A stretch of 49,659 nt of DNA from Patescibacteria group bacterium (lineage in GTDB: Bacteria > Patescibacteriota > Minisyncoccia > Phycocordibacterales > UBA918): positions 1 to 49,659 of the forward strand of contig JAIEOU010000002.1 in NCBI GenBank assembly GCA_019750255.1, read 5' to 3'. The notes under the pieces are model-generated. The model saw only the letters and a program-made list of their open reading frames with translations, ran no database searches and was not told where the DNA came from. The number at the start of each line of letters is the position of its first letter. Within the stretch, counting starts at the first letter, position 1. Below are positions 16,351-26,718 of this stretch, one piece after another. Made by a program: the position numbers and the translations under genes.

Positions 16351-16385
16351 ATGAAAAGCCCGGACAGAGTGTCCGGGCTTTTCAT
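16351..16385. terminator. bidirectional intrinsic terminator
   Basis: ATGAAAAGCCCGGACAGAGTGTCCGGGCTTTTCAT. Confidence 0.85.
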
Positions 16386-16404
16386 GTGTCGGTAAAAAAC
16401 TGAG

Positions 16405-16603
16405 TCGGGATAGCCGGAATCGAACCGACACCGCACCCCTTACGGGCCGCAGATGTCTCCCAGACATCTGGAGAAACTCTTAGTCGGGCTGCCGAGAATC
16501 GAACTCGGACCGTACCCACCCCATGGGCACACACTACCACTATGCTACAGCCCGACCAAAAGTTTCTCCCCCATGCGCAACACTACAACTCAGCTATACC
16601 CCG
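16405..16603 (-). tRNA. tRNA-Pro-like gene interrupted in the anticodon loop by an insert carrying another tRNA-Pro
   Basis: Minus strand 5' half CGGGGTATAGCTGAGTTGTAGTGTTGCGCATGGGG and 3' half GTGCGGTGTCGGTTCGATTCCGGCTATCCCGA; acceptor CGGGGTA/TATCCCG, C1-G72, A73, T-arm GTCGGTTCGATTCCGGC; D loop degenerate. Confidence 0.6.
16484..16554 (-). tRNA. tRNA-Pro(GGG)
   Basis: CGGGCTGTAGCATAGTGGTAGTGTGTGCCCATGGGGTGGGTACGGTCCGAGTTCGATTCTCGGCAGCCCGA folds as canonical cloverleaf; anticodon loop ATGGGGT, C1-G72, A73. Confidence 0.88.
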
Positions 16604-16618
16604 ACTCAATTTTTTACC

Positions 16619-16655
16619 CCGCACGGGCACACACTACCACTCTGCTTACAGCCCA
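16619..16655 (-). pseudogene. tRNA-Pro 5' half remnant (outermost layer)
   Basis: TGGGCTGTAAGCAGAGTGGTAGTGTGTGCCCGTGCGG; shares AGTGGTAGTGTGTGCCC with the inner tRNA-Pro; no T-arm partner found. Confidence 0.6.
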
Positions 16656-16760
16656 TAATCTCTTTCCTTTCCTCGGCAAAAGTATACCCGAACAATGAAG
16701 GTTTTCAATTTCCTAGAGTCTGGTATGGTGGTAGCCAGTTCTTTCAACCCTTAGGGAGTC

Positions 16761-22296: not shown

Positions 22297-23067
22297 AGCG
22301 GGCACTACTCATGACTTCTCCCAGAAAAAACGCCCCGCGCTAGAGCATCGCATTTGCGATTTTCTGCCGCGGACACGCGGCTTTTTCTTTAAGAAATCAA
22401 CGAGGGTAGGTGATCGTTTACAAATCTCATCAGCGAGCGTCGTGCAAACACGATAGTGTTTGCGATGGATTGCGAAGCGTGACCAACACCTAGTGTTGGT
22501 CACGGTGACGCAAGACAACGCAAAAAGCACCGTAGTGCTTTGCATGACCGAGCGCCAATCATTTGTATGGTTTCCATACAAATCCTTTGCGTGGTTTGCT
22601 TGATGGGAGTCGTAGTGGCAGGGCCACACGATCACATATCCTAAGAGGGCGGATTTTGATAAGAGTCCGCCCTTCAAAATTCCTCGCGTGTTCGACGCAC
22701 GCGGGGTACATGCACATAGTTGCGCGAGTGATTATGTGCACGTAGGTAAATGATGCGTTGGGTTAGACAATTGAGTCACATGACTCGGGTCTTTTCGTCC
22801 CCAACACATCAACAACAAAACACACAAAAATGTACAGCGGTGTACAGCGTTCCTTGCAGGAACGCAAGGGTGTATGGTGGATGCCTAGGCTTCAAGAAGC
22901 GATGAAGGACGTAGTATGGCTGCGATAAGTTTCGGCGAGGTGCCAAACAACCTTTGACCCGGAAATTTCCGAATGGGGAAACCCTCCTATCTACGATAGG
23001 AATCTGTGTATGCAGATGCGCACCCAGGGAAGTAAAACATTCTAGTACCTGGAGGAATAGAAAGCAA

Positions 23068-23172
23068 TAAAGGGAACTTTCTTTCTGAACGGACGCTTTA
23101 TGCGTTTCGGTCAGGGAGTAATTCCTGAGCGGGGCGTAAAAAGCCCATTACGTTCAGGAAGAAGGTTCTTGC
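23068..23172 (+). other. helical expansion/IVS in 23S domain I
   Basis: GGAACTTTCTTTCTGAACG pairs with CGTTCAGGAAGAAGGTTCT, enclosing further hairpins; absent from the E. coli sequence at this position as I recall it. Confidence 0.65.
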
Positions 23173-23440
23173 GATTCCCTTAGTAGCGGCGAGCGAAACG
23201 GGAATAGCCCAAACCAGTCGTGTTTACATGGCTGGGGTTGTAGGGCAAAGACTGCATTTAGTTGCAGAGAGTCAAAAAATGTACATATAGGAAAATGCGC
23301 TGGAAAGCGCGACCCCAGAAGGTAATAGTCCTGTATTCGAAATATGTATATCTCTCCTGTCTTTGATCCTGAGTAGTTCGGGACACGAATAGCCCGAATG
23401 AATCTACCGGAACTAACCGGTAAGGCTAAATATTCTTGGA

Positions 23441-23486
<46 letters not shown>

Positions 23487-24051
23487 GGAGAGGGGAGTGA
23501 AATAGATCTGAAACCATACACCTACAAGGAGTCGGAGCCTCAATTTATTGGGGTGACGGCGTGCCTATTGAAGAATGAGCCGGCGAGTGTACCTTTGTCC
23601 TTCGTCTAAGTGGTAACCCCACGTAGGCACAGTGAAAGCGAGCGTGAATAGCGCGTTTAGGGCAGGGGTACGACCCGAAGCGGGATGAGCTTGCCATGAG
23701 CAGGGTGAAGCGACTGTAATAGGTCGTGGAGGCCCGAACCGGTTGGCCGTACAAAACCATCGGATGACTTGTGGTAAGGAGTGAAAAGCTTATCGAATTC
23801 CGTAATAGCTGGTTCTCTCCGAAACAGCTTTTGGGTTGGCGTCGCGTGTTCCCTCTGGGGGTAGAGCACTGGAAAGAGTAAACAGGGAGAAATCTCGTTA
23901 CTCTTATCAAACTCCGAATACCAGTAGATTACAGCGCGGCAGTTAGACGGTGGGGGCGAAGCTCCACTCGTCAAAAGGGAAACAGCCCAGATCGCCAAAT
24001 AAGGTCCCTAAATACATGCTCAGTGCAAAATGAGGAGGTGAGGATTCACAA

Positions 24052-24086
<35 letters not shown>

Positions 24087-24926
24087 TAAAGAAAGCGTAA
24101 CAGCTCACTGGTCAAGAGTCCTTGCGCCGAAGATGATCGGGGCTCAAGCATGTTACCGAATTTGCGGATTTGTATCGCAAGATACAAGTGGTAGGAGAGC
24201 GTCCTTCATGCAGTGAATCCAAGGCGAGAGCCGCGGTGGAGCGTGGAGGAGTGAGAATGCCGGCACAAGTAACCGCAAGACGGGTGAGAACCCCGTCCGC
24301 CGAAATACCAAGGTTTCCTTTGCGATGGTGATCAGCGAAGGGTTAGTCGGTCCTAAGGGAATCCCGAACGGGGGACCCGATGGATAGCAGGTTAATATTC
24401 CTGCACATTGTTATGTTCCTATGGAGGGACGGAGTGTTGTACCCACCGCCCCTTATTGGATTGGGGTAGGGGCTATGAGGACGTCTGTTAGGCAAATCCG
24501 GCAGATATAATCCGAGTAGTAGCTAAAAGTGCGGCTTCGGCCAAGCTGATGGTGGAGAGCACACTTCCGAGAAAAACTTCGTTTGGGTTAAACATAATGA
24601 TTCCGTACCGCAAACCGACACAGGTGGTAGAGTCGAGAAGACTAAGGCGAACAAGTGAGAGGTCCTCAAGGAACTCGGCAAAATAGCGGCCGTAACTTAG
24701 GGATAAGGCCTGCCCTCGCCGCAAGGTGTGGGGCCGCAGCGAAAGATTTCCTGCCGACTGTTTAACAAAAACACAGCTCTCTGCGAAGACGTAAGTCAAT
24801 GTATAGAGGGTGACGCCTGACCTATGCTGGAAGGTCAAGTACGGGGGGTGGTATGGTCTTCGGATTGTACTGCTGGACTGTATAAGCCCCAGTAAATGTC
24901 AGCGATAACTATAATCGTTCTAAGGT

Positions 24927-25152
24927 AGAGCGTGTTTCCGCGCAAGCGCGAAGTACGCTCTACGGATTAGAACGGTTATAGGTTAAACAGCCTAGCCACA
25001 GTTACCTTACCTATCGAAAGATAGCGTAATCCAAATCTAGCCAACAAGAGACCAAATGCTAGACACCCAAGTGTTCGCAAGAATAACGGGTGAAGATAGA
25101 GTCCTATTGGTGCACTGACACGTAAGGCGTGTCGTTTAAGAAGGAAAAATAG
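24927..25152 (+). other. group I intron in 23S (E. coli L1931 equivalent), ORF-less, 226 nt
   Basis: Exons ...TTCTAAGGT | AGCGTATTTCCTTGTCGGG...; U before 5' site, terminal G; GAGACCAAATGCTAGAC...GAAGATAGAGTCC P7/P3/P8 core-like. Confidence 0.85.
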
Positions 25153-25812
25153 AGCGTATTTCCTTGTCGGGTAAGTTCCGACGTGCACGAATGGCGTAAC
25201 GAGTGGGAAACTGTCTCGAGGACCTGCTTGGTGAAAATACAATACCGGTAAAGATGCCGGTTACCTGCAGATAGACGAAAAGACCCCAGGAGCTTTACTG
25301 TAGCTTCGTATTGGGACTATTGAATTAATGTGTAGTATAGGTGTGAGACTATGAAGCGGGCTTTCGGGTACCGTGGAGTCGCCAGTGAAATAGCACCCTT
25401 TAATTTGGTAGTTTCTAACCAGCACGAAAAAATCGTGTTGAGACAGTGCGTGGCAGGCAGTTTTAGTGGGGCGCTACCCTCCCAAAAAATAACGGAGGGG
25501 TCTCAAGGTAGGTTAGGCGCGAATGGAAACCGTGCCGATAGTGTAATGGCATAAACCTGCTTGACTGTAAGAGGTAGATCTCGAACAGACGCGAAAGCGG
25601 AGCATAGTGAACCGATGGTACGCGTTAGATGCGGCCGGAGATTACCCGATAAAAGTTACCCTGGGGATAACAGGCTAGTTGTGCCCAAGCGTCCATAGCG
25701 ACGGCACAGTTCGGCACCTCGATGTCGGCTCATCTTATCCTGGGGCTGGAGCAGGTCCCAAGGGTTTGGCTGTTCGCCAATTAAAAAGATACGCGAGCTG
25801 GGTTTAGACCGT

Positions 25813-26097
25813 TCTGGTACTAATAGTTATATTAGTACCAGAACCAATCTAAACCCGAGGAGAAAGGATTCAACCCCCTTTCAAAAAGACATCATCACGG
25901 CGGCAAAGCATAGCGATATGTTTTGAGAAGCTGACTTATATCGGTAGAACCCGACGTTACGTTTAAGAATGCGTAACAGGGCAATACCGAGGGAAGTGTG
26001 TACTCAGTACATCACACCCGTAGAGACTACACGTCAGACATCTCGTAAGAGATGAAGCTATAGTCCGATCCTCCACGAGAGTGGAGCAAACAAGATG
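25813..26097 (+). other. group I intron in 23S (E. coli L2593 equivalent), ORF-less, 285 nt
   Basis: Exons ...GGGTTTAGACCGT | CGTGAGACAGGTTGG...; U before, terminal G; AGACTACACGTCAGACATCTCGTAAGAGATGAAGCTATAGTCCGATCC (P7-P3-P8-P7') and CTCCACGAGAGTGGAG (P9). Confidence 0.9.
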
Positions 26098-26239
26098 CGT
26101 GAGACAGGTTGGTCTCCTATCTACTGCAGGCGTCGATTCTTGAGGAGAGTTGTCCCTAGTACGAGAGGACCGGGATGAACGAACCTCTGGTCTGTCGGCT
26201 GTCACGCCCGTGGCACTGCCGAGTAGCTATGTTCGGAAT

Positions 26240-26272
<33 letters not shown>

Positions 26273-26644
26273 AACTCCAAGATTAGGAATCATTAAGTCC
26301 CCTGAGAGATGATCAGGTTGATAGGCACTAGGTGTACATACAGCAATGTATTGAGCCGAGGTGTACTAATTGGACGTAGTTTCCTGCAAGGAACGCTGCA
26401 CGTCGCTGTTACATTTTTGTGTTGTTACGATTAATTTACCTACGTCGAATTCTTCTGTAGTGAGGAGGCCCCCCACTGCTCCCCCGCAGTCCTCCATCGG
26501 TGCGGTCGCTTCTCCCCCGGAGTGGCCGCACCGACACTGTTCTTGACTACTGGAAACTCGTTTCCAGTCTTCCTCATTGCAGAAGAAGCAATAATTTTTG
26601 AAGATCTCTTAGGATATGCACAGCGTCATAGTTCGCGAAGTGTG

Positions 26645-26718
26645 CGGGGTGTAGCTCAGTCTGGTAGAGCATTGCCTCAGGGAGGCGAAGGTCGGAGGTT
26701 CAAATCCTTCCATTCCGA
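26645..26718 (+). tRNA. tRNA-Pro, predicted anticodon AGG
   Basis: CGGGGTGTAGCTCAGTCTGGTAGAGCATTGCCTCAGGGAGGCGAAGGTCGGAGGTTCAAATCCTTCCATTCCGA; C1-G72, A73; loop TCAGGGA; CCA not encoded. Confidence 0.85.

Follow-up and report, generated by a model that had tools for sequence, protein, structure and literature searches.

Nested tRNA-Pro genes in Parcubacteria suggest an undescribed type of insertion that both breaks a tRNA and provides a fresh copy of it

Few genes are known to be as constrained as those for tRNAs. Integrative elements use tRNA genes as attachment sites and restore them, and bacterial 23S rRNA can carry an IVS, a hairpin inserted in a loop of the RNA that needs no ligation. 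Several other systems come close to the arrangement reported here. The cited passages describe the tRNA introns of Archaea and their movement from one tRNA gene to another, together with the disruption of a Caldiarchaeum tRNA-Thr gene (PMC10714607, citing Fujishima 2010; PMC3293823), split and permuted tRNA genes in Archaea and algae (PMC3218864, PMC3978253), and the repetitive hairpin elements of mitochondria, which are short mobile palindromic repeats (PMC2800124). The nested locus analyzed here appears partly like an archaeal intron (in its site and spread), a 23S IVS and a palindromic mobile repeat, and it fails or leaves open one defining feature of each of the three alike. Literature searches of open-licence papers found no nested tRNA of this kind, in agreement with an earlier sequence-only reading of the locus, which had known of no bacterial precedent.

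The window, that is, the whole stretch of DNA analyzed, comprises 49,659 nucleotides from a Patescibacteria group bacterium. The host genome (G000) is 0.95 Mb, 99.9% complete, and has 41 tRNA genes of 40 types. We identified the following parts of the nest and its flanks, given in 5' to 3' order of the minus strand with the basis for each in parentheses.

16681 to 16708, minus strand: promoter-like hexamers TTGAAA-16-TATACT, upstream of the nest (promoter scan)
16617 to 16654, minus strand: 5' half of an outermost (third) tRNA-Pro, a remnant (sequence; similar start in G004)
16605 to 16618, minus strand: outer clamp, 5' strand GGTAAAAAATTGAG (fold)
16570 to 16603, minus strand: 5' half of the outer tRNA-Pro, positions 1-36, with a degenerate D-arm and the D-loop GG lost
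16556 to 16569, minus strand: inner clamp P1, 5' strand GGAGAAACTTTTGG, running unbroken into the inner acceptor stem (fold)
16484 to 16554, minus strand: inner tRNA-Pro(GGG), with no second Pro(GGG) gene found in the genome (ARAGORN, Rfam)
16470 to 16483, minus strand: inner clamp P1, 3' strand CTAAGAGTTTCTCC (fold and covariance model)
16451 to 16469, minus strand: hairpin P2 AGATGTCTGGGAGACATCT (covariation among relatives)
16447 to 16450, minus strand: linker GCGG (GYGG in most relatives)
16437 to 16446, minus strand: hairpin P3 CCCGTAAGGG (covariation among relatives)
16405 to 16436, minus strand: 3' half of the outer tRNA-Pro, positions 41-73 (alignment of layers)
16391 to 16404, minus strand: outer clamp, 3' strand CTCAGTTTTTTACC (fold; same 14 letters at the syntenic G009 locus, L011)
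16351 to 16385, minus strand: GC-rich hairpin followed by a T run, a probable terminator (fold)

The inner gene was called by both ARAGORN and Rfam (RF00005, 54.8 bits) and has a canonical cloverleaf and a valid anticodon, as the sequence-only reading had described. Two other features of that reading, a 22-bp helix extending the inner acceptor without a break and an outer acceptor helix extended to about 22 bp, are both present in the minimum-energy fold, and the two outer tRNA halves are in place. This fold has an energy of -128.5 kcal/mol (z -9.5), and none of 200 shuffled sequences was as stable; the whole unit, taken as the predicted transcript, gave a z of -10.2. Chance pairing of the helices was ruled out by these statistics and by the clamp scores against controls described below. 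In the window, all three of the pairs 27-29 x 41-43 form, two of them as wobbles. The two hairpins and the GYGG linker (16437-16469) separate the inner element from the outer 3' half. Rfam searches of the region found no group I or group II intron, that is, no catalytic core, as had been claimed, and no family for P1-P2-P3; a match to the SpF41 sRNA was below its cut-off and overlapped the tRNA.

Outside the nest there is an older, third 5' half, which makes the array three layers deep on its 5' side. The first two G of the outer clamp overlap the end of this half, and a matching 3' half was not found at the window locus. The 5' flank with the promoter-like hexamers can be aligned to the G004 locus, which carries a single tRNA. 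One transcript probably covers the whole nest, because the hexamers precede it and the GC-rich hairpin and T run follow it; a terminator scan gave no score to that hairpin and T run. As a separate observation, a leader starting GGGNTGTAAGCA, together with hairpins, lies upstream of many tRNA-Pro genes of the genus (L011, L012, L013, L125, L130). The leader is also present in the window at 16641-16654, and it resembles a tRNA 5' end broken in the D-arm.

Relatives of the nest were located by DNA and pattern searches and then with a covariance model of clamp-tRNA-clamp-P2. We found the nested architecture in at least 18 genomes from 12 family-level groups of Parcubacteria, which are small uncultured bacteria. 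The order of parts from 5' to 3' is outer tRNA 1-36, P1, inner tRNA-Pro, P1', P2, GYGG, P3 and outer tRNA 41-73, and the junction 36|41 is fixed across the 20 curated layers (18 genomes, 12 families) that we aligned. The clamp P1, which extends the inner acceptor stem, is usually 12-14 bp and reaches about 30; P2 is about 19 nt; and the inner tRNA-Pro has a GGG, UGG or CGG anticodon. The outer 3' half, counted from position 41, has its expected length to within one base in all layers without a further insert. Three-shell nests were also found (L039, L065). The recurrence and the clamp covariation that the sequence-only reading had proposed as checks were thus both observed. An assembly artefact would not account for one and the same layout in many independent genomes from different families, and was rejected. 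Decay of a tandem tRNA array, for which that reading had proposed lack of conservation in relatives as the sign, was rejected as the full story: the arrangement is conserved, and the halves lie in nested order with fixed junctions.

Approximately 26 loci scored above 100 bits with the covariance model among 397 genomes of the order, some of them no longer with both outer halves. Matches outside the order were rare in a 380-genome sample of the phylum, where L145, L143 and L137 are related nested forms. The 3' side (P2-GYGG-P3-3' half) was modelled separately, and in 297 genomes all the strong matches inspected lay in tRNA-Pro nests; since this model includes the outer T-arm of Pro sequences, it tests other tRNA types only weakly. 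Covariation was strong. In clamp-tRNA-clamp-P2, 26 pairs had two-sided changes, compared to 14.0 expected from shuffles, and covariation in P2, P3 and the T-stem was found at 16 of 17 pairs; both results were above all shuffles. For this reason the clamp, P2 and P3, judged from the alignments, are not drifting spacers.

Several variant forms were seen. In L124 and L140 a clamped tRNA-Pro lies within the T-loop of another, and in L051, L109, L114 and L145 the extra hairpin is placed 5' or is absent. The outer shells of L043, L072, L078, L082 and L083 have further inserts in their D- or T-loops, including hairpins whose core is CYTTACAGRG and palindromes rich in GCTCGCTCGG, which are possibly more families of short mobile hairpins.

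The insertion is in the anticodon loop, as the sequence-only reading had proposed. The clean junction at about 37/38 that it had suggested did not hold up, because the outer exons stop at 36 and resume at 41. In the alignment of all layers, the outer tRNA is without positions 37/38-40, and the pairs 30-31 x 39-40 are lost. The pairs 27-29 x 41-43 are retained in 14 of the 20 layers, a tally in which the window row is one base out of register at 27-31. With the insert removed, the window's outer copy does not form a complete cloverleaf (37/38-40 missing, D-arm broken), and the outer exons do not join into an intact tRNA, as those of a protein-spliced intron would.

Inner copies are more intact than outer copies. 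Among 13 inner/outer pairs, the inner tRNAs were free of defects except for a T6/T67 mismatch, whereas most outer tRNAs had broken stems or a broken D-arm. Outer copies range from an identical copy to a wreck that has lost acceptor pairs, the D-arm or an entire half. L153 is a fresh case in which inner and outer tRNA match at every retained position, and its outer copy, like those of L157 and L079, is whole apart from the junction. L069 is self-nested, and its two layers agree exactly in clamp, P2 and P3.

Related species differ at two conserved chromosomal sites, with either a single plain tRNA or the nested form. The GGG locus, which adjoins DUF1360 and rplJ, is nested or carries a remnant in G000, G021, G008 and G009, and has a plain single tRNA in G004, G011, G017, G024, G031 and G032. 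At the UGG locus, which adjoins yraN, nested and single states alternate. A yraN tree of 45 loci required 13 state changes, at least five of them forced by well-supported branches. The number of changes is close to that for random labels, and the tree shows lability, not frequency, because the sample favours nested loci. The nested G294 and the single G091 are orthologous upstream as far as position 31 of the outer tRNA. Presence and absence at orthologous sites, as found here, is expected of a mobile palindromic element. Some nests within the genus look inherited, because the window's outer 3' clamp recurs letter for letter in G009. Nests are limited to a small minority of genomes, and shells are lost or decayed in sister species.

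Extended clamps (score of at least 8) were found on 42% of Pro genes in a set enriched for nested loci, compared to 3.8% of other tRNA genes and 0.7% of mispaired controls. They also occur on many non-nested tRNA-Pro genes, where either earlier cycles may have left them behind or the clamp may be of use in itself. In two tRNA-Pro nests (L169, L143) and in a tRNA-Ala within a tRNA-Ala (L092), the clamp arms are the CCCGTTAGA/TCTAACGGG arms of a dispersed palindromic repeat. This repeat is present in 20 of 197 genomes of the order at up to 25 copies per genome, and a reversed-pattern control gave zero. Its copies, in G176 and other genomes, have constant arms and a covarying inner stem. These loci provide the best evidence that such nests may be elements built as a hairpin tipped by a tRNA.

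Free dispersed copies with conserved arms were therefore found for the CCCGTTAGA form and not for the window's P1-P2-GYGG-P3 form: a search of 327 genomes detected no free copies of the P1'-P2-GYGG motif outside nested tRNA-Pro. Hence we infer mobility of the main form from its labile distribution, fixed junctions and self-nesting. No transposase or recombinase was linked to the nests; Y1 transposases are common in the order and have no clear association with them. Mobility by reverse transcriptase as a general cause was rejected on the lack of an RVT_1 match in G000, and several nested genomes are not among the positives listed. Carriage by phage or plasmid was also rejected, since the nest had no match in phage, plasmid and viral collections, the viral scan being for an exact pattern and so weak.

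Other unusual tRNA genes were observed. In G000, single genes for tRNA-Thr, Ile and Leu have long clamps on either side (L002, L001, L196); after the tRNA-Thr gene comes another copy of it, which hairpin inserts have broken up, and a tRNA-Gln pair (L120) has the same clamp type. In L054, L116, L130 and L131, an inverted copy of a tRNA 3' end, split by a GCAAGCAA-type hairpin, lies past the tRNA-Pro terminator hairpin. In the window, a tRNA-like gene between 23S and 5S rRNA (26645-26718) was called Pro(AGG); it has C at position 33 and a loop able to pair internally, and its decoding role is doubtful. The 23S rRNA gene (22854-26391) exceeds the Rfam consensus in length by about 600 nt, and alignment shows at least one insert of about 100 nt.

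Compared to the archaeal tRNA introns of the cited passages, the nest is alike in inserting into tRNA genes, in its probable spread among them and in having heterogeneous states at one locus, and with those introns and the Caldiarchaeum tRNA-Thr disruption it shares tRNA fragments, in the nest left behind by a putative mobile event. It differs from them in that it is bacterial, its insert is a tRNA, target bases 37/38-40 are lost, and bulge-helix-bulge splicing is not in evidence, with RtcB absent. Like the 23S IVS, it is a hairpin inserted in a loop, with an extended stem that would suit RNase III and no need for ligation; its target, however, is a tRNA, which is intolerant of fragmentation unlike rRNA, and the insert brings a replacement gene. 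Its conserved arms and variable, covarying inner stem are like those of REP/MITE-like repeats and of mitochondrial hairpin repeats as described in the source cited above, as are the dispersed copies of the CCCGTTAGA form. Unlike such repeats, the nest has a complete tRNA at its tip and targets tRNA loops only, and its main form is without free copies. Integrative elements that target tRNA genes also bring a replacement tRNA sequence, but the nest is a whole tRNA inside its target, has no element genes, and shows a 3-4 nt loss where such elements would have a duplicated att core. Split and permuted genes, as the cited passages present them, likewise have the tRNA gene in halves; in the nest the halves lie in cis around an intact tRNA, and rejoining is not indicated.

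We think it fairly probable that these loci are best explained by repeated insertion of a tRNA-tipped hairpin into the anticodon loops of tRNA-Pro genes, with the inner copy taking over and the outer decaying. A resident tRNA-Pro gene would take up, in its anticodon loop, a hairpin element with a complete tRNA-Pro at its tip. Every such insertion would destroy the resident tRNA, with loss of 37/38-40, and would bring a working copy inside, so that the cell would survive the loss. The inner copy would become the functional gene, driven by the old promoter, the outer copy would decay, and the cycle could recur to give two or three shells. The clamp helix would hold the fold of the inner tRNA apart from the outer halves. 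The clamp and acceptor stem, about 22 bp, form a plausible RNase III substrate, and the host genome has an RNase III gene; a cut in this double-stranded RNA would most likely open the precursor, and RNase P and 3' trimming would finish the inner tRNA, which would be the only copy to mature. This scheme does not account for the loss of 37/38-40, and the strong covariation of P2 and P3 could alternatively reflect a function for the outer RNA.

That covariation also bears on two unlikely alternatives. If the insert were a true tRNA intron carrying a tRNA, the precursor would be cut and joined and both tRNAs would mature. The analogy, which the sequence-only reading had implied, draws on an anticodon-loop position close to the intron site of Archaea and Eukarya, on the pairing constraint on P2 and P3, and on the outer copies that are whole except at the junction (L153, L157, L079). 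Our analysis did not support it. With 37/38-40 missing and P3 bases giving no matching 39-40, exact joining would leave the outer anticodon stem unrestored, and RtcB ligase (PF01139) is absent from the 99.9% complete host genome (a control was positive in 9 of 14 genomes); for both reasons an intron is improbable. In addition, inner copies are intact, while in many outer copies an acceptor or D stem is broken or one half is missing. We likewise doubt that the whole nest is a conserved structured RNA, such as a regulator, decoy or processing scaffold, whose outer shell has its own function. Covariation of clamp, P2 and P3, a 27-29 x 41-43 stem that 14 of 20 layers retain and the frequency of clamps on tRNA-Pro even without nests would fit such an RNA, but nests occur in a small minority of genomes, are labile on the tree, and have shells that sister species lose or show in decay.

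The abundance of half tRNA copies, inverted tRNA ends past terminators and D- and T-loop inserts in these genomes, together with inner and outer copies that are frequently near-identical, could instead mean that the nests are products of repair. Replication template switching at a palindrome-flanked tRNA-Pro would paste a neighbouring or paralogous tRNA copy into the hairpin loop, with no mobile element required; we regard this as very unlikely, since a junction at 36|41 and a P2-GYGG-P3 module common to 12 families are too regular for an unguided process. Duplicated tRNA ends, which are common in these genomes, and the standing of tRNA genes as classical integrase targets would also suit a scar reading, in which a larger integrative element attached at the anticodon loop, carried a restoring tRNA copy and was later reduced by deletion. 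Such integration restores part of a tRNA and not a whole nested copy, the insert is short with a constant layout across families even in the youngest case (outer identical to inner), and phage, plasmid and viral collections had no match, all of which make a scar extremely unlikely.

Our preferred explanation, repeated insertion of a tRNA-tipped hairpin, suggests an undescribed type of insertion, one that breaks a tRNA and brings along a fresh copy of it. More tentatively, and with somewhat less than even confidence, we suggest a new class of mobile element, in which a tRNA-bearing hairpin homes to a tRNA anticodon loop and replaces the gene it destroys, so that nested self-insertion renews tRNA genes. 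Recurrent breakage of the anticodon loop, in which the break itself receives the replacement, amounts to a new gene architecture, and through nested insertion a selfish element would probably have a new strategy of survival. This breakage helps to account for the abundant half tRNA copies in these genomes. The nested precursors offer a testable case of RNA processing, and the nests extend to Bacteria the question of how tRNA genes come to be disrupted.
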